Notes under the pieces: model-generated
What the model was told of the DNA's origin: nothing
What the model saw: only the letters and a program-made list of their open reading frames with translations
The model's database searches: none
From: Chitinophagaceae bacterium IBVUCB2
GTDB lineage: Bacteria; Bacteroidota; Bacteroidia; Chitinophagales; Chitinophagaceae
Direction of reading: 5' to 3'
Assembly: GCA_002127295.1 (NCBI GenBank)
Contig: NFUV01000001.1
Span: 1,178,001 to 1,242,000, forward strand
DNA length: 64,000 bases
Made by a program: the position numbers and the translations under genes
Shown here: piece by piece, positions 15,601 through 38,526 of the stretch
How positions within the stretch are numbered: the first letter of the stretch is position 1
Layout of the letters: the number at the start of each line of letters is the position of its first letter

Positions 15601-16275
15601 TTATGCTTGTTCTACCAAACCTGCTTTTACAGCATACATCACCAAACCGGCCATTGACTTGGTGCCAGTTTTTGTTTTGAGTTTATCACGGATGGCTTCC
15701 ACAGTTCGTGGGCTAAGGTCAACCATATCGGCTATCTCCTTTGTGCTTTTCTCATCACACATCAATTTGAGTATGGTAATTTCTTTATCGGTTAGCTGTA
15801 CATCCTGGGGCATTGAAGATTCGTTGGTACGTTTGGTACGCAAACCACTTAATAGTGCCTTGTTCGTAAGCTCATTAAAATGGAAGTCATTTTCGTAAAC
15901 TCCTTTTATAGCCTCGTAGATCAACTCAGCTCCAGATTCTTTAGTAATGTAAGAGTTAGCACCAATTTCCATCATCTTAGAAATAACCGAATGATCGTTT
16001 AAGAATGAAAGCATGATCACTTTCACATTAGGATACAATTTTTTGATCTCGGGAAGTGCAGTTAATCCATCCATTATTGGCATCTGGATGTCTAACAAAA
16101 TTACATCAGGCTGAATGTGGCGCAGCAGGTTCAGTAATTGCATGCCGTTTTCAGCTTCTGCCACCATCTGAATGTCTTTACGGGCTTGTAGCGCTGTTTT
16201 AATGCCGGTCCGGAAGAGTGCATGATCATCGGCAATTGCTACCTTAATTACTGAGTTGTTTTCTGAGTTTTTCAT
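15601..16275 (-). CDS. NarL/FixJ-family response regulator (RR1)
   Basis: A two-domain response regulator of 224 residues. The receiver (about 10-130) has the acidic pair Asp16-Asp17 (AIADDH), phospho-acceptor Asp62 (ILLDIQMP), a Ser switch residue (VIMLSF) and Lys in YITKES. The C-terminal LuxR-type HTH (about 160-220) shows LTDKEITILKLMCDEKSTKEIA and LSPRTVEAIRDKLK. I start at MKNSENNSVIKVAIADDH, 25 codons into a longer frame. No kinase gene is adjacent. Upstream and divergent lies candidate sRNA 1; the same arrangement recurs for RR2. Confidence 0.92.
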   Translation of the reverse strand: MKNSENNSVIKVAIADDHALFRTGIKTALQARKDIQMVAEAENGMQLLNLLRHIQPDVILLDIQMPIMDGLTALPEIKKLYPNVKVIMLSFLNDHSVISKMMEIGANSYITKESGAELIYEAIKGVYENDFHFNELTNKALLSGLRTKRTNESSMPQDVQLTDKEITILKLMCDEKSTKEIADMVDLSPRTVEAIRDKLKTKTGTKSMAGLVMYAVKAGLVEQA

Positions 16276-16490
16276 TACTTGGATTATTGGGTAAAATAAA
16301 ATTGGATTCAGTATTTGTTCTGGGTGCAAGATGAAAAATTCCTGCAACATATACCATAGGGAAAGTACTTGATTTCGGTTGTGTGGAAACTACAGTATTA
16401 ATACTGAAATAGAAAGTTTACGAATGATTTTTTGAAAAACTACGAGCCTATGCGTAAATACCATGTATTTTAAATAGGGCAGTTACACTC
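16276..16490. other. RR1 upstream region with short palindromes
   Basis: Non-coding sequence between RR1 and the sRNA-1 promoter. It contains a 14-bp perfect palindrome, CAGTATTAATACTG, at 16393-16406, and a 6-bp-arm inverted repeat AAATAC-CAT-GTATTT at about 16456-16470. Either could be an operator for autoregulation of RR1 or for the divergent transcript; this is inference. No RR1 promoter could be assigned confidently. Confidence 0.4.
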
Positions 16491-16521
16491 TTGTTAACAA
16501 TTGGTTGTGGATATACTTTTG
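16488..16521 (+). promoter_or_regulatory. Promoter of candidate sRNA 1 with palindrome over -33
   Basis: TTG at 16491-16493, a 20-bp spacer, then TACTTTTG at 16514-16521, matching the Bacteroidota consensus TTG...TANNTTTG. The block CTCTTGTTAACA overlaps the -33 box and contains the palindrome TTGTTAACAA. The sRNA-2 promoter has the same elements at the same spacing. The predicted +1 is about 16526-16528. Confidence 0.7.
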
Positions 16522-16525
16522 TATC

Positions 16526-16670
16526 GAAAGTTGATTGAAACGGTATGAGTGCTAAAATCCAAACTCATCCAATGTCCAAAACCGTCCAGAAAGTTATTTC
16601 CAATTCCTTTGAAAGATCAACCCGGTAAACCCGGGAGCATTTATCCGACAATCAACTTTCACTTTTAATT
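16526..16670 (+). ncRNA. Candidate structured small RNA 1 (paralogue of sRNA 2)
   Basis: A predicted independent transcript starting at the 5' arm of a long-range stem: AAAGTTGATTG (16527-16537) pairs perfectly with CAATCAACTTT (16649-16659), with CGG/CCG (16541-16543 with 16645-16647) continuing it across a small internal loop. Inside are a hairpin ATGAGT/ACTCAT (16545-16550 with 16563-16568), a conserved UCC-rich core (16569-16613) and a hairpin CCCGG-TAAAC-CCGGG (16621-16635). Four identical blocks in the core are shared with sRNA 2. The 3' end may be the U-rich tail near 16670 or the strong terminator at 16787-16820. A 27-codon ORF (16545-16628) exists but its frame is not conserved in sRNA 2. 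No known family recognised. Confidence 0.6.
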
Positions 16671-16786
16671 TGAAGTCCCGTTTTTTAAATCCAATACCTG
16701 CTGAAAGAAAAACCAAAAACTATTGAACCCTGTCCCTGTGAAGCGCAACGCTTAAAGATTTTTTTCTTTTCATAACAGTAACGTTT
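16671..16786 (+). other. Region between sRNA 1 closing stem and its terminator
   Basis: No gene seen. Includes a short hairpin AAGCG-CAA-CGCTT (16741-16753) followed by a T-rich stretch, a possible weak terminator or processing site. If the transcript continues to the terminator at 16787, it would be about 290 nt. Confidence 0.4.
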
Positions 16787-16820
16787 AACCCCGGTCCTCA
16801 TAACGCCGGGGTTTATTTTT
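16787..16820 (+). terminator. Strong intrinsic terminator downstream of sRNA 1
   Basis: AACCCCGG (16787-16794) pairs with CCGGGGTT (16806-16813), followed by TATTTTT on the plus strand. The minus strand has no U-tract after the stem. No plus-strand protein gene precedes it for kilobases, so it implies a non-coding plus-strand transcript here. Confidence 0.8.
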
Positions 16821-16879
16821 GCCTGTTATTTATTTATTGGGGTAATTGATACAAGATTATCATCCTGACTGAACAAATT

Positions 16880-17623
16880 CTATAATTTTTCAGCTATCAT
16901 ATAAATTCTTGGTTCTCCGGGTGTAAACTTCTTTCTGCCGGGAATACTAAACATTTCTTGTAATTGAAAGCCGGCCTTTTTCAACATGGCTTCCATTTCA
17001 TTAATAGAATAGATATAATCAATAGCAGTTTTTTCTTCGGTAGTACCGTCCCGTGCAATAATAGTACTTATCACTTCTATTCTTGAAGGATGAAAATGAT
17101 ATTCGCTACTGGTAAGGAATTTAAATTCGCCGATCTGGCTCCAGGATTTGTTCTGGAAGTTTTTAACTGCTATTTCAGTTACTGACCAGCTATTAATTAA
17201 TAATTTTGCTCCTTTGGCTAATTGAGACGCTGTATTAGTTAGAATCCTGGTAACTCCCGCCTCATCAAAAAATTGTAAACTGTTACCCATACAAATGGCT
17301 AAATCAAAAACATCTCCTGATTTAAAATTGCCAATATCAGCTTTTACAGCCGTTAGATGCAAGTTTTCGCTTTGCGCCGTTTGTTGTATTTCGTCAATAT
17401 AATCTCCCAGGTTATCAACCGCCGTTACATTTATTCCCTTTTTTGCTAAAGCTATCGAATGACGGCCATAACCACACATCAGGTCCAGCAACTTGCTGCC
17501 TTGTTGAAGATTAAAATAAGAAAGTATAAAGTCAACTTCTTTTATTGTCAACTCATACGGAATAATTGTTTTCCAGATTTGCTTATAATAACCATCAAAA
17601 AAAGTATCGTTTATATTTGACAT
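16880..17623 (-). CDS. Class I SAM-dependent methyltransferase
   Basis: A 247-residue methyltransferase with SAM-binding motif I in LLDLMCGYGRHSIALAKKG, the acidic ribose-binding residue at the end of INVTAVD and a motif in FDLAICMGNSLQFFD. The substrate is not evident; similar Bacteroidota proteins are annotated only as class I methyltransferases. I start at MSNINDTFFDG; an alternative ATG lies eight codons upstream. It sits between the two response-regulator/sRNA modules on the same strand as RR1 and RR2, with 59 bp to RR2. Confidence 0.8.
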   Translation of the reverse strand: MSNINDTFFDGYYKQIWKTIIPYELTIKEVDFILSYFNLQQGSKLLDLMCGYGRHSIALAKKGINVTAVDNLGDYIDEIQQTAQSENLHLTAVKADIGNFKSGDVFDLAICMGNSLQFFDEAGVTRILTNTASQLAKGAKLLINSWSVTEIAVKNFQNKSWSQIGEFKFLTSSEYHFHPSRIEVISTIIARDGTTEEKTAIDYIYSINEMEAMLKKAGFQLQEMFSIPGRKKFTPGEPRIYMIAEKL

Positions 17624-17682
17624 TACCTGTTTTGAAAAAATTATCAATGAGGGATGCGATTTCTTAAGACTAAATACTGAGA

Positions 17683-18336
17683 TTATTCAAGCAATTTATT
17701 CCGCATAGCATACATTACCAACCCTGCAATTGTTTTTGCACCTACTTTCTGTTTCATGTTCTGGCGAATGGTTTCGATAGTGCGGGGACTTAAAAAAACC
17801 TCTTTTGAAATTTCTTCGGTGGTTTTGTCTTCTGCAATTAATTTCAAAATTTTTATTTCCTTTTCTGAAAGTTTTACCGGGTTAGGATAAAATTGCCTCA
17901 CCGTTTTTTTGTGCTGTAGTTTTAATAGGACAGCTTTATTGACCAGTTCATTAAAATAGAAATCGTCATTCATACAGGTGAGAATGGCCTGGTATATTTC
18001 TTCCGGGTCTGTTGTTTTGGTGAGGTATGCGTTCGCCCCCATCTCCATCATTTTGGTGATCATTTCCTGGTCATCGTACATGGTAAGTACAATGATCTTT
18101 AATGCTTCATACTCTTTGCGGATAAGACTGATGGCATTAATGCCATCTACTTCTGGCATACGGATGTCCATTAAAATAACATCGGGTAATTTTAATTGCA
18201 GTTTATGCTGAAGATCCTTACCATCTTCGGCTTCCCATAAAATCTTCAGATATTCTTTATCTTTCAAAGCCATCCGGATACCATCACGGAAAATTTTATG
18301 GTCATCGGCAATGGCAACCTTTATAATTTGGGACAT
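17683..18336 (-). CDS. NarL/FixJ-family response regulator (RR2)
   Basis: A 217-residue regulator homologous to RR1 and RR3. The receiver has Asp11-Asp12 (AIADDHKIF), phospho-acceptor Asp57 (ILMDIRMP), a Thr switch (IVLTMYDDQ) and Lys in YLTKTT. The linker FYFNELVNKAVLLKLQ is shared with RR1 (FHFNELTNKALLSGLR). The LuxR HTH contains LSEKEIKILKLIAEDKTTEEIS and LSPRTIETIRQNMK. It is divergent from candidate sRNA 2, whose promoter lies about 265 bp upstream of this start. No kinase gene is adjacent on this strand. Confidence 0.92.
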   Translation of the reverse strand: MSQIIKVAIADDHKIFRDGIRMALKDKEYLKILWEAEDGKDLQHKLQLKLPDVILMDIRMPEVDGINAISLIRKEYEALKIIVLTMYDDQEMITKMMEMGANAYLTKTTDPEEIYQAILTCMNDDFYFNELVNKAVLLKLQHKKTVRQFYPNPVKLSEKEIKILKLIAEDKTTEEISKEVFLSPRTIETIRQNMKQKVGAKTIAGLVMYAMRNKLLE

Positions 18337-18599
18337 GAATAGTTTGGTTTAGCAGTTAATTTAATGGGTATCGTATTGCGTAAAACTACTCTTTTTTTAG
18401 TATTCTCCCTATCTTCATTTACTAAAGGGAGAAGAAAGAGTAAAACAAATTTCAGAAATGAATATTTTTTTAGTCGGATTCCACGTAGAAAAAAAGCCTT
18501 CAGGTAAATTTTCATTTTCAAACAAGTATATTTTCATTTAGCCAAAGTAAGATTACTATTAGGCCAGTAATTGCCGAAAAAAATAACTCCGCAATTTTG

Positions 18600-18633
18600 C
18601 TCTTGTGCACATCCGCATGTGAATATACTTTTG
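18600..18633 (+). promoter_or_regulatory. Promoter of candidate sRNA 2 with palindrome over -33
   Basis: TTG at 18603-18605, a 20-bp spacer and TACTTTTG at 18626-18633. CTCTTGTGCACA over the -33 box contains the palindrome TGTGCACA; ten of its twelve bases match the sRNA-1 promoter. The predicted +1 is about 18638-18640. Confidence 0.7.
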
Positions 18634-18637
18634 GTAC

Positions 18638-18763
18638 AAGTTGATTGACAGAAGATGGGCCCCTCAAATTGTCCAATGTCCTTAGAAACCGTCCAGAACG
18701 AAATTCCAAATCCTTTGAATGCCATACGCCAAATCCAATGTCAGTCAACTTCTTTTCTTTTTA
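18638..18763 (+). ncRNA. Candidate structured small RNA 2 (paralogue of sRNA 1)
   Basis: AAGTTGATTGACA (18638-18650) pairs with TGTCAGTCAACTT (18739-18751): 13 bp with one G-U wobble, closing a loop of about 88 nt. The stem begins at the predicted +1 and is followed by a U-rich tail (CTTTTCTTTTT, 18752-18762). The core 18673-18719 contains the same blocks as sRNA 1: CCAATGTCC, AAACCGTCCAGAA, TTCCAA and TCCTTTGAA. A short hairpin TGGGC/GTCCA is possible just before the core. The 3' end is uncertain: an inverted repeat TTTAAAGCC/GGCTTTAAA (18760-18768 with 18791-18799) lies downstream without a clear U-tract. A 38-codon ORF (18655-18771) overlaps but is not in the same frame relation to the core as in sRNA 1. 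Confidence 0.6.
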
Positions 18764-19224
18764 AAGCCTAACAATTAGTTTTTAAATCCTGGCTTTAAAT
18801 AAATCACTTTCTGGCCTAATTCTTGGCCATATTCTTATCCACAGCTGCTAATATTGGAGTTGAAATCGGAAATTTACCGGTAAACTTACTATTTTAATGT
18901 CCGTAAAAATACTATTTTTACTAAGAAAATATACTAATTATTCTATCGAAAATTTTCTATTTAAAATCGTTAAAACCCTTATCCATTCAGTATTTCAGCC
19001 GTTTTTAAGAGTTAATACTTGTTTTCACACCGATTGTATTCCCCCTTCAAAATGGCAATTTTTATAACTCAAATTTGAATTTGAAAGGCTTAAAAATGTT
19101 ACTGTTATGAAAAAGAACGTAAGAATTTGTAGAGGTTGGAATGTTGATGCAATAACTGTTTGGGAAGACTAATCCTGAGTTGTTGTATTTTGAAATTTCA
19201 ATCTGAGAAAAAGTTTTTCTATTT
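18764..19224. other. Long non-coding interval upstream of the membrane protein/kinase genes
   Basis: About 460 bp, very AT-rich, with no supported gene. It contains a 12-bp palindrome TTTACCGGTAAA (18873-18884) and a 19-bp palindrome GTAAAAATACTATTTTTAC (18903-18921). Both are followed or spanned by a near-repeat TTACTATTTTA / TACTATTTTTA. These could be operators for the downstream 7TM-kinase-RR3 genes. A hairpin TGGCC/GGCCA is at 18812-18829. Nothing else recognised. Confidence 0.45.
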
Positions 19225-19923
19225 TTGGAGAAATCCAAAGTTATAGAAAAGCTTTTTTTTAATATTGTAATAGTATCATATCTACTTATTCCTCTGAGTA
19301 TTGGATTTCTTTTTTTCAAAAATCAAGGTATTACTAAAATACCTAAAAGCTTACTGGTATACGGGTTTGCTTTCTTTTTACTCTTATTATTTTATTCTAG
19401 TGTTCCAACAAGATTATCGAAGTATTATCAAAGTATTTACACATTCCTCGAATATTTCTTTTTTGCTTATTTCTTTTATTTCAATATTAACTCAAGAAAA
19501 TTTAGGCGTTTCATAATTTTTGCTTCGTCCTGCTTCCTTGTTTTTCAAATATTGTATTTAGCAACTGTTAAAGTAAGAAGGCTTGATTCTATACCTATTG
19601 GCATTGAAACAATTCTCCTTTTAATATATATTATTTACTTTTTTCTAGAATTTGCTAAAAAAGACGCAACAAACTATATATATAACCACTATTGTTTTTG
19701 GCTGGCAATAGGAGTTTTGATTTATTTAGGTGGCTCTTTTTTCTTTTATATGTTAATTGACCACCTTAATAAGGAAGAGGTTATTACTTTTGGAAATTTG
19801 ACTTTTTTAGCAGAGTTTGTAAAAAATGTTCTTTTTTCCGCCGCAGCTTTTATTTACATACGTTCTCCCCTAAGTAATTCCCAATCACAAAATAAATCAG
19901 TCCCCTATCTAGACCTCATTTAA
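19225..19923 (+). CDS. Seven-helix membrane protein of unknown function, upstream of kinase
   Basis: A 232-residue, Phe/Tyr/Ile-rich protein with about seven hydrophobic segments (roughly 10-30, 42-58, 70-88, 96-114, 123-142, 156-178, 192-213) and a short polar tail. There is no recognised domain. It starts with TTG (19225), because the frame opens after a TGA at 19204-19206 with no ATG nearby; the exact start is uncertain. It ends 22 bp before the kinase gene and points the same way, so it may supply a membrane sensing part for that kinase, which has only one membrane segment. Base composition is more AT-rich than its neighbours. Confidence 0.7.
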   Translation: MEKSKVIEKLFFNIVIVSYLLIPLSIGFLFFKNQGITKIPKSLLVYGFAFFLLLLFYSSVPTRLSKYYQSIYTFLEYFFFAYFFYFNINSRKFRRFIIFASSCFLVFQILYLATVKVRRLDSIPIGIETILLLIYIIYFFLEFAKKDATNYIYNHYCFWLAIGVLIYLGGSFFFYMLIDHLNKEEVITFGNLTFLAEFVKNVLFSAAAFIYIRSPLSNSQSQNKSVPYLDLI

Positions 19924-19945: not shown

Positions 19946-20773
19946 ATGTTTTTCCTCCAAGCCACTACCAAATCCTCTGTTTCATTAGTGCTTTTCTTAG
20001 GCACCCTTGGCATGGTGGTGCTTACCGTTAACCTCATTATTTTTATTATTCTCCATCAGCGACGTGTCTTACGTTTTCAGAACAAGATCAACCAGATGGA
20101 ACAGGAGCAGCAAAAAATCCTCTTAAACGCCTCTATAAAGCTCCAGGAAGAAGAAAGACAACGCCTTGCTGCCGACTTACACGATGATGCCGGACCACTA
20201 TTAGCAACCGCCAGGCTTTACCTCAACGAGAACCTGGTGAACCAGGATAAAGCTACCCAGCTTCAATCTATCTTTCAGGCCCGCCAGATTATTGATGATA
20301 CTATCCAGCTTGTACGTAACATCAGCCACAGCCTGATGCCCCCCACCCTTAAAAATTTTGGATTAGAATCGGCAGTAAATGATTTATTCCAGAAAATAAG
20401 TGGCTCGGGCAGTATTAATGCCAGCAGTCGTTTTCATGAATACAGAGACCGTTTAAAAGGTGAAAAGGAGTTGGTTATTTTCCGAATTGTCCAGGAGTTA
20501 ATCAACAACATCCTTAAGCATAGTAGTGCCAGCTTTATTCATCTTACACAAAATGTACATGCTGATAAATTTTATCTCCGTATTCATCACGACGGCAGAG
20601 GAATTGTACAGTCTGACTTTGATAAATTAAATAAAAGTAATGTTGGATTAGGGCTAAAGAACATCAGCAGCCGCCTACGCTTGGTACAAGGCAATATTAA
20701 TTTTGAAAAAGATATTTCTCAGACCTACTATAAAGTGACTATTGAGATGCCGAAGGACGAGCCTTATCAATGA
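19946..20773 (+). CDS. NarX-type (HisKA_3) sensor histidine kinase
   Basis: A 275-residue kinase: one N-terminal membrane helix (about 13-37), a coiled-coil (40-72), a HisKA_3 dimerisation domain with His79 in RLAADLHDDAGP, and an HATPase_c domain with the N-box (IVQELINNILKHSS), DGRG (216-219) and GLGLKNISSRL. It lacks an extracytoplasmic sensor domain, so it must sense through the membrane, cytoplasm or a partner. It is followed 51 bp later by RR3, its likely cognate regulator, and could also serve the orphan regulators RR1 and RR2. Confidence 0.9.
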   Translation: MFFLQATTKSSVSLVLFLGTLGMVVLTVNLIIFIILHQRRVLRFQNKINQMEQEQQKILLNASIKLQEEERQRLAADLHDDAGPLLATARLYLNENLVNQDKATQLQSIFQARQIIDDTIQLVRNISHSLMPPTLKNFGLESAVNDLFQKISGSGSINASSRFHEYRDRLKGEKELVIFRIVQELINNILKHSSASFIHLTQNVHADKFYLRIHHDGRGIVQSDFDKLNKSNVGLGLKNISSRLRLVQGNINFEKDISQTYYKVTIEMPKDEPYQ

Positions 20774-20824
20774 CATTGAATAGCGGAGAAATCGCTAATT
20801 TTATCGAATATCTTATAAAAAATA

Positions 20825-21475
20825 ATGGGAACTATAAAGGTAGCTATTGCGGACGATCACAAAATTTTTCGTAAAGGAGTCATACTTTCTTTGCGGCCTT
20901 TTACCAATATCAAATTTGTGTTTGAAGCTGAGAATGGTGATGAATTACTAAATGGTTTACCAGACTCAGAGCCTGATGTGGTACTAATGGATCTCCGGAT
21001 GCCCGGCAAAGATGGTATTGAAGCAACTAAAGCAATCAGCAAGCAATTTCCACATATAAAAGTTCTTATCCTCAGTATGTATGAAGATGAACGTTTCGTT
21101 TATCACCTGATGGAAAATGGTGCAAATGGTTACCTGTTGAAAAATGCAGAGCCCCAGGAAATACGCCGTGCTATTATGGAGGTTTATGAAAAAGGATATT
21201 ACCTGAATAATTTTGTTAACCGAATCCTTCTTAAAAAATCTCACTCCCGTCAAAAAGTGGTGCCGTCTTTAAACAGTGAAATTACGCTGAGCGATAAAGA
21301 AAAGGATGTACTTCGTTTTATCTGCATGGAATTTACCGCCCAGGAGATTGCACAGAAAATGGAGATCAGCCCCCGAACTGTTGAAGCTATTAAAGATAGG
21401 TTGATGGAACGTTTTGGCAGTAAGAATACAGCAGGGCTTGTGTTTTTTGCGGTAAAGAATAATTTAATTGATTAG
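20825..21475 (+). CDS. NarL/FixJ-family response regulator (RR3)
   Basis: A 216-residue regulator, the likely partner of the kinase just upstream. The receiver has Asp10-Asp11, phospho-acceptor Asp56 (VLMDLRMP), a Ser switch (LILSMYEDE) and Lys in YLLKNA. The HTH shows LSDKEKDVLRFICMEFTAQEIA and ISPRTVEAIKDRLM. It is the third homologous regulator within 6 kb; unlike RR1 and RR2 it has a kinase neighbour and no sRNA-like element. Confidence 0.92.
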   Translation: MGTIKVAIADDHKIFRKGVILSLRPFTNIKFVFEAENGDELLNGLPDSEPDVVLMDLRMPGKDGIEATKAISKQFPHIKVLILSMYEDERFVYHLMENGANGYLLKNAEPQEIRRAIMEVYEKGYYLNNFVNRILLKKSHSRQKVVPSLNSEITLSDKEKDVLRFICMEFTAQEIAQKMEISPRTVEAIKDRLMERFGSKNTAGLVFFAVKNNLID

Positions 21476-37946: not shown

Positions 37947-38082
37947 TAAATAAAAAAACCGTTATTTTGTAATGCATTTGGTGCTCTTTCAGTTTCACAA
38001 GTCCTGAACGTTTCGAAAAACCGTATATGTTCGATGGGTGCTGTTTACTGTTGACACTTTTATTTTTTTAAAAACTCTCAAA

Positions 38083-38526
38083 ATGAACATTTACGTAGGA
38101 AACCTTAGTTGGAACCTGAAAGACCAGGATCTTTCAAACCTTTTCGCAGCACATGGCGAAGTAGTATCAGCAAAAATTGTTACAGACAAATTCACTAACC
38201 GTAGCAAAGGCTTTGGTTTTGTAGAAATGGCAAACGATGAACAAGCACAAGCAGCAATCGCAGCTTTGAATGGTTCTGAAGTTGACGGTCGTGGCATCGT
38301 AGTTAACGAAAGTCGTCCTAAGCCTGAAGGCGGTGGATCTGGCGGCGGCGGTGGCTTCAAGAAAAGAAGCTTCGGTGGCGGCGGCGGTGGTGGCTACAGC
38401 GGCGGTGGCGGCGGTGGCTACAAAGGCGGCGGCGGTGGCGGCGGCTACAAAGGTAAAAGCGGCGGTGGCGGCGGCGGTTACAACCGTGACCGTGGCGGCA
38501 GCGGCGGATACAATAACGATTATTAA
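38083..38526 (+). CDS. Single-RRM RNA-binding protein with Gly-rich tail
   Basis: A 147-residue protein: one RRM (about 1-82) with RNP2 IYVGNL and RNP1 KGFGFVEM, then a tail of Gly-rich repeats broken by Tyr, Phe, Arg and Lys (GGGGYSGG, GGGYKGG). Single-RRM proteins are common in Bacteroidota and cyanobacteria, where they bind single-stranded RNA and are candidates for sRNA chaperones. The tail resembles phase-separating low-complexity regions. I trimmed a 15-codon extension. The leader may be long (inverted repeat at 37914-37946), and the gene ends at a terminator. Confidence 0.9.
   Translation: MNIYVGNLSWNLKDQDLSNLFAAHGEVVSAKIVTDKFTNRSKGFGFVEMANDEQAQAAIAALNGSEVDGRGIVVNESRPKPEGGGSGGGGGFKKRSFGGGGGGGYSGGGGGGYKGGGGGGGYKGKSGGGGGGYNRDRGGSGGYNNDY

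Follow-up and report, generated by a model that had tools for sequence, protein, structure and literature searches.

Background

To our knowledge, RNAs that are driven by a response regulator and titrate a protein are known mainly around CsrA, as in the Gac/Rsm and BarA-UvrY/Csr systems (RsmX/Y/Z and CsrB/C RNAs), whose regulators GacA and UvrY belong to the NarL family. Short words recognised by an oligomeric protein are also the hallmark of TRAP-type triplet repeats, and the nearest multicopy family that we know of in the phylum Bacteroidota is FopS. The upstream site that GacA recognises is a conserved palindrome, whose use as a BLAST query gave a fourth Rsm RNA, rsmX-2 (PMC7911923); FopS RNAs, about 65 to 70 nt long, repress through base-pairing by their R1' seed (PMC11697453). 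Here, we analyse a stretch of 64,000 nucleotides from Chitinophagaceae bacterium IBVUCB2 (contig NFUV01000001.1, positions 1,178,001 to 1,242,000, forward strand; hereafter the window), in which two similar predicted RNA elements, copies 1 and 2, are each divergent from a gene for a NarL-type response regulator, RR1 and RR2 respectively.

Comparison of many genomes establishes, at the level of sequence, a multicopy family with a closing stem, a repeated UCC word, a promoter and an upstream box that we call box A. Its copies almost certainly belong to a small RNA family of the Chitinophagaceae that is absent from Rfam, and we found no description of it in the open-access literature. We see about an even chance that these RNAs, activated by RR1 and RR2 through box A, sequester a protein that binds RUCC[A/U] words, in a layout resembling Gac/Rsm without CsrA.

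Results

Three copies in one genome

The original prediction had described two copies of a structured RNA that share four blocks, each closed by a long-range stem and followed by a U-rich tail or a strong terminator. All four blocks, as well as both stems, are present in the two elements where they had been placed (Table 1); a strong terminator was seen at copy 1 only, copy 2 having its stem and a U-rich tail. The number of copies had to be revised, as the genome holds a third one at C1:279,950, 0.9 Mb from the regulator genes, with the same promoter, stem and tail, between what we take from their translations to be a cysteine-synthase/CBS-like gene and a btuF-like gene. When one mismatch is allowed, AAACCGTCCAGAA occurs at five places in the whole genome, namely the three copies and two others that have no stem and no promoter and were rejected as copies. 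UCC is found 11 times in 16526-16823 of copy 1, nine times with A or G before it, and TCC 10 times in the closed domain of copy 3 and 19 times in its predicted 313-nt RNA. Compared with 200 dinucleotide shuffles, copy 1 folds with a z of -5.55 and copy 2 with a z of -1.48, 12 of the 200 shuffles folding equally well; copy 2 is thus unremarkable by folding energy alone, and the case for it is carried by comparative evidence.

That no protein is read out of the elements was borne out: a 27-codon frame seen by eye over copy 1 is not kept among homologues, because the ATGTCC-ACCGTCC spacer of 2 to 9 nt falls in all three frames (36, 25 and 27 of 88 copies), and a small protein encoded by the element was ruled out on this ground. 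The view that the RNA resembles no known family also stands. An Rfam scan of the window at gathering thresholds found one tRNA elsewhere and nothing at copies 1 and 2, and permissive scans of these two copies (up to E 10) gave only matches far below family thresholds. The earlier doubt about 6S RNA agrees with the scans, in which neither the window nor 12 family loci gave a 6S-type match at gathering score and copies 1 and 2 gave none up to E 10.

A family within the Chitinophagaceae

A covariance model built from six copies (R1), the check that had been proposed, was searched against 58 relatives; it matched 21 of them, with 42 copies in all, and every carrier is in the same genus. The genomes of these 21 genus members measure at least 2.6 Mb, those of the 14 members without the RNA 1.5 to 2.1 Mb. 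A pattern holding the conserved blocks, scanned through named genomes, matched at least 114 stretches, and 80 loci were fetched; their record titles are those of Bacteroidota (for example Flavihumibacter, Puia, Niastella, Pseudoflavitalea, Pinibacter, Flavisolibacter and Agriterribacter), some depositor labels, taken as deposited, reading Sphingobacteriales or Flavipsychrobacter. Of 132 copies, 107 are distinct and form the main set; 102 references were kept and 86 were aligned. A second set of 32 diverged copies was fetched by model; one locus (L104, identical to L191) is in both sets and is therefore counted twice among the 139.

With a model built from the 86 copies (R2), 36 of 298 genomes of the order matched at E <= 0.01, 32 of them in the Chitinophagaceae with 1 to 7 copies each and four, weakly, outside the family. 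Three of these four (L222 to L224) were read and set aside as chance matches, because promoter, box and repeats are not visible there; the fourth is in G205. In a phylum-wide draw of 296 genomes, five matched at E <= 1e-4, all Chitinophagaceae. Weak members may have been missed by the strict filters of the order-wide and phylum-wide searches, and all convincing matches so far are within the Chitinophagaceae. Flavisolibacter ginsengisoli (DSM 18119, a cultured environmental carrier with 7 copies), a member of this family by taxonomy, has a copy identical to one at G198:C13, which links the group of 32 matching genomes to the Chitinophagaceae. Three reverse-strand model matches that mirror the near-palindromic stem, as well as low-scoring ones on the opposite strand, were dropped, and an alignment that held two of them was set aside. 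The multicopy comparisons support the structured small RNA family with UCC motifs that had been predicted. At five loci, L198 (G232), L199 (G297), L200 (G285), L201 (G173) and L202 (G301), two to three copies stand in tandem within about 0.3 to 1.2 kb, each with a promoter-like sequence.

The closing stem

Pairing of the closing stem in homologues had been named as a check. The 13-pair stem has 1118 cells in the 86-row alignment; standard pairs make up 96.0% of these, compared with 93.4% after shuffling (0/500) and 9 to 47% after sliding, and double-change cells number 28 against 9.0 in shuffles, none of 500 shuffles reaching 28. Covariation is clearest at pair 13-182 (C-G 51, U-A 21, U-G 5). 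The inner pairs are nearly invariant, the rare changes across the 42 genus copies being almost all to G-U, and therefore give weak information on pairing; they hint at a constraint on sequence as well. Conservation of the stem across the family is supported by these alignments.

Consensus folds show the stem around one long open strand. An extra C/G-rich hairpin in the loop, seen by eye in many type 1 copies and in the fold of copy 1, is absent from the RNAalifold consensus. The closed domain with an 11-nt tail has a predicted length of 116 to 153 nt in the 107 copies. A terminator-like hairpin lies downstream in 31 of 131 copies (median end at 165 nt; shuffles 0/131), most copies having none under the rule used. 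One relative, at G010:C210 (L232:2551-2900), has no closing stem but has box A, promoter-like sequence and, counted by eye, 12 UCC words; it is followed by a CCTCCTGCTAA/TTAGCAGGAGG hairpin that is also seen at copy 3. Near the 5' end of 31 of 139 copies (for example L003:1450-1490) there is a second RTCAATC, which could pair locally with GATTGAY and so rival the closing stem, a possible folding switch.

A repeated UCC word in loop and tail

The loops of the 42 genus copies together contain 231 TCC where dinucleotide shuffles give 162 (z 8.8), and GTC (z 11.6) is the sole trimer that scores above it; GGA occurs 51 times. The number of UCC words per closed domain is 3 to 10. In the 32 diverged copies, ATCC is present 129 times and TCCA 120 times where mononucleotide shuffles lead one to expect 14.1 and 13.8, an enrichment that is not fully independent because some UCC positions are built into the model. 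The base before CC in this set is T in 163 cases, A in 56, G in 14 and C in 8 (241 in total), though A is commoner than T, and the base before TCC is A or G in 149 of 163. What persists in the diverged copies is thus RUCC[A/U], a word that recurs in both loop and tail.

The tail past the stem lies nearly outside the covariance model. Over 95 copies, its first three 50-nt bins hold 42, 36 and 31 [AG]TCCA against about 12, 11 and 10 expected (11.6 for the first bin, in which TGGA[TC] occurs only once); upstream, the five bins from -250 to 0 hold 6, 7, 2, 3 and 19. The tails of 31 diverged copies give 17, 25 and 8, against about 4, 4 and 3. The commonest distance between neighbouring TCCs is 6 to 8 nt (166 cases in the main set and 50 among diverged copies); main-set copies often show 13 to 14 nt as well. 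Diverged loops are G-poor (C 0.23, G 0.10).

Promoter and upstream boxes

At copies 1 and 2 the stem starts 4 nt past TAnnTTTG, with TTG a further 20 nt upstream; TTG-N20-TAnnTTTG is the promoter form of the Bacteroidota. TAnnTTTG is present in 105 of 106 main-set copies, 93 of which have the TTG too, and a control window further upstream holds the pattern in 0 of 135. Upstream alignments also revealed box A, TACGA-N8-GTAAATACC, for which a spacer of 8 is optimal (summed score 521, against 388 to 429 for spacers of 4 to 7 and 9 to 12). In 92 of 105 main-set copies it begins 82 to 88 nt ahead of the stem, and a score of at least 11/14 is reached in 84 of 105, compared with 1 of 105 in reversed sequence. 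In the diverged set, box A lies at 82 to 88 nt in 23 of 32 copies and scores at least 11 in 16; among the diverged places listed, 14 of 26 have a box scoring at least 11 at 85 to 87 nt. With spacers of 3 to 12 allowed, this 4-Mb genome has just two exact boxes, one each at copies 1 and 3. Twenty chosen genomes contain 16 exact boxes, of which 14 accompany copies matched by the model and another pointed to the stem-less G010:C210 copy, which the model had missed; the exact box at G001:C38 was rejected as a marker of the RNA, there being no RNA of this kind at that place. A palindrome-like box B, GRGC-N6-GCYC, adjoins the -33 TTG; in 115 of 138 copies its best match starts 49 to 51 nt ahead of the stem.

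Regulator genes

Relatives of RR1 or RR2 (>60% identity) are divergent from the RNA and within 600 nt of it at 81 of the 107 distinct copies. Among the other 26 are unlinked copies, some that are truncated where a contig or locus ends, and some that a different regulator gene separates from RR1 or RR2; among the matches listed, G198 (Flavisolibacter) and G081 have copies not near RR1. To compare presence across genomes, 52 RNA-positive and 28 RNA-negative ones were used, leaving aside four RNA-negative genomes of the genus (G002, G006, G013 and G017, 74 to 87% completeness). RR1 (E <= 1e-60) is present in 52 of 52 and 3 of 28, respectively (Fisher p 9e-18). RR2, at a cut-off (E <= 1e-85) chosen after the RR1 search had revealed cross-matches between the two, is present in 47 of the 52 and in the same three RNA-negative genomes. 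In two of these three, G007 and G014 (small genomes of the same genus; L206 and L207), RR1 adjoins a methyltransferase gene with no RNA between, and RR2 identity is 65 to 66%, against 90 to 98% in the other matching genus members. The third, G195, has promoter-like elements and UCC words and no recognisable stem. At one locus (G020, L018; C16:6321-6761), RR1 is a partial match with two stops that seems broken, and box A of the nearby copy is weak (10/14).

The description of RR1 and RR2 as orphans holds in that no in-line kinase gene adjoins either of them, and falls short in that a kinase and a third NarL-type regulator, RR3, are encoded at 19946-21475. The kinase is a candidate partner of RR3, and possibly of RR1 or RR2. 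Between copy 2 and the kinase gene, a frame at 19225-19923 looks by eye like a membrane protein, with no Pfam match and a look-alike at the same place in L010. Inverted repeats like GTAAAAATACTATTTTTAC stand at 18880-18950, between copy 2 and the block of membrane protein, kinase and RR3 genes, and are perhaps an RR3 binding region.

Table 1. Coordinates in the window of the two RNA copies, their predicted signals and the regulatory genes
Feature	Position	Strand	Remarks
RR1, NarL-type response regulator	15601..16275	-	Response_reg + GerE; divergent from copy 1
Copy 1 box A, TACGA-N8-GTAAATACC	16441..16462	+	exact; candidate regulator-binding site
Copy 1 box B, GRGC-N6-GCYC-like	16477..16490	+	adjoins -33 TTG; imperfect, GGGC-N6-ACTC
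Copy 1 promoter, TTG-N20-TACTTTTG	16491..16521	+	Bacteroidota-type
Copy 1 RNA (predicted)	16526..16820	+	closed domain 16526-16660, UCC-containing tail, terminator
Copy 1 closing stem, 5' arm GAAAGTTGATTG	16526..16537	+	
Copy 1 closing stem, 3' arm CAATCAACTTTC	16649..16660	+	12 bp, 12/12 complementary
Copy 1 terminator	16787..16820	+	strong; hairpin 16787-16813, then T run
RR2, NarL-type response regulator	17683..18336	-	Response_reg + GerE; divergent from copy 2
Copy 2 box A	18554..18575	+	degenerate, 11/14 positions
Copy 2 promoter, TTG-N20-TACTTTTG	18603..18633	+	
Copy 2 RNA (predicted)	18638..18763	+	closed domain + U-rich tail; 3' end uncertain
Copy 2 closing stem, 5' arm AAGTTGATTGACA	18638..18650	+	
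Copy 2 closing stem, 3' arm TGTCAGTCAACTT	18739..18751	+	13 pairs including one G-U
Histidine kinase	19946..20773	+	HisKA_3 + HATPase_c
RR3, NarL-type response regulator	20825..21475	+	third of its type

Candidate protein partners

CsrA (PF02599) was found in none of the 80 genomes, three of 14 control genomes being positive (E. coli, B. subtilis and T. maritima), and Hfq (PF17209) in none above the cut-off, with one sub-threshold match in G254 (E 6e-4); both were rejected as partners. RRM proteins are kept only as a candidate class, because their presence does not track the RNA. The window encodes an RRM protein with a glycine-rich tail at 38038-38526, about 20 kb from the RNA locus, which we do not claim as the partner; in several other genomes, comparison of positions by eye puts an RRM match no more than about 30 kb from an RNA copy or a regulator gene of the same contig (about 1.3 kb in G297).

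Discussion

In the mechanism that we propose, transcription would start at or beside the first base of the closing stem, which in genus copies holds a loop of 90 to 120 nt, with 3 to 10 UCC words in the closed domain, mostly RUCC in diverged copies; a UCC-rich tail and, in some copies, a terminator would bring the predicted RNA to about 250 to 310 nt. RR1, RR2 or both would bind box A some 80 bp upstream and activate linked and unlinked copies. Control of the RNA copies by these regulators is likely, given box A, its fixed position, the near-restriction of exact boxes to RNA copies and the co-occurrence of regulators and RNA. The accumulated RNA would then sequester a protein that recognises RUCC[A/U] words and thereby release the target mRNAs of that protein. 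We infer titration of a protein because words of 3 to 4 nt, in variable number, that outlast the long blocks and in one case the stem fit a protein sponge better than a base-pairing RNA. It is a tentative proposal, with slightly less than an even chance of being right, that this constitutes a Csr-like switch of independent origin in the Bacteroidota, made of two NarL-type regulators, 1 to 7 sponge RNAs and a putative RUCC-specific protein, with no CsrA found and no Hfq above the cut-off.

Several observations weigh against this interpretation. Regarding the stem, the pairs with a double change number 4 against 2.5, at least as many turning up in 53 of 500 shuffles, and the single pair 13-182 accounts for 23 of the 28 double-change cells. 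The UCC count is ordinary (p > 0.05, mononucleotide shuffles) in 11 of the 42 genus copies, and UCC words are just modestly more unpaired than the remaining loop (0.70 against 0.59). The promoter is rarer in the diverged set (TAnnTTTG in 21 of 32, with TTG in 16). One-mismatch box A sites are not clearly enriched genome-wide in the 20 chosen genomes, being little commoner than the reversed pattern (58 against 50), and a wide box A regulon was rejected on that count. The 80-genome statistics ignore shared ancestry, and the 18 family-level negatives were taken among genomes listed in the R2 search; moreover, RR1 persists without the RNA in G007 and G014. Finally, RRM proteins are present in 78 of the 80 genomes, 52 of 52 with the RNA and 26 of 28 without it.

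Among other explanations, the RNAs could form a multi-seed base-pairing family like FopS/GibS, in which the conserved UCCAAUGUCC and ACCGUCCAG blocks would be the seeds, base-pairing with mRNAs close to their start codons whether or not an RRM protein helps. The length of these blocks, which exceeds that of a protein word, their conservation in the main types and the RRM proteins of all 52 RNA-positive genomes speak for such pairing, as does the precedent of FopS for a multicopy family in the phylum (PMC11697453). We nevertheless consider it unlikely: block conservation is partly a matter of ascertainment, since most loci came from a pattern that holds the blocks, many diverged copies have lost the long blocks and kept the RUCC words, and the UCC word runs on into the tail and varies in number from 3 to 10 in the closed domain. 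The RNA could also be a decoy for a general factor that favours unstructured RNA richer in C than in G, above all Rho, through which the regulators would tune termination. Rho sites look like G-poor, C-rich loops, such as those of the diverged set, with UCC spacings of 6 to 8 nt or, as in the main set, 13 to 14 nt, but the word is narrower than YC, T preceding most CCs and A or G most TCCs; we regard this decoy as improbable.

A role as cis-acting leader or terminator of a downstream operon would suit copy 2, upstream of the same-strand block of membrane protein, kinase and RR3 genes, and copy 3, upstream of the same-strand btuF-like gene. It is quite improbable for the family, as a strong terminator and then a methyltransferase gene of convergent orientation lie downstream of copy 1, and as downstream genes vary among types and loci where promoter, box and RNA stay recognisable. 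As for a 6S-like RNA that binds RNA polymerase via its long closing stem, the long-range stem starting from the predicted +1 and the open middle recall one, but all Rfam families, 6S included, stay below threshold at the elements, the stem-less G010 relative retains the repeats, and the consensus folds, with one long open strand in the closing stem, differ from the 6S bubble; the chance of this is very slight.

If the sponge interpretation is true, this circuit would be a second, unrelated version and a case of convergent evolution, and it would open the way to a new RNA-binding protein of global reach, in a phylum where little is known of post-transcriptional control. These RNAs are short, multicopy and carried by cultured environmental strains.

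Among known systems, Hfq-dependent small RNAs differ in that no Hfq was found here above the cut-off in 80 genomes. FopS/GibS with RbpB of Bacteroides are alike in being a multicopy small RNA family of the same phylum, with the promoter type of that phylum and RRM proteins present; compared with FopS, the present RNAs are longer (116 to 153 nt predicted for closed domain and 11-nt tail) and closed by a stem, and they have repeated words as well as a box upstream. TRAP-type triplet repeats share the many short words at near-regular spacing, which here is only loosely regular. Membership in the CsrB/Rsm class fails because the word differs (231 TCC against 51 GGA in 42 loops) and CsrA was found in 0 of 80 genomes. 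Further differences from Csr/Rsm are that the words lie in a large loop under one long-range stem and in the tail, that the regulator gene is the divergent neighbour of 81 of 107 copies, and that all convincing matches are in the Chitinophagaceae. The likeness to Gac/Rsm and BarA-UvrY/Csr nonetheless extends to the presence of more than one paralogous RNA in a genome, the repetition of a short word (UCC instead of GGA), a palindrome-like upstream box and a NarL-family regulator, a link that is predicted here. In both cases a search with the box finds a further copy, rsmX-2 in Gac/Rsm (PMC7911923) and the G010 copy here, and the RNA may serve as a sponge much as CsrB RNAs do in E. coli, although CsrA was found in none of the 80 genomes.

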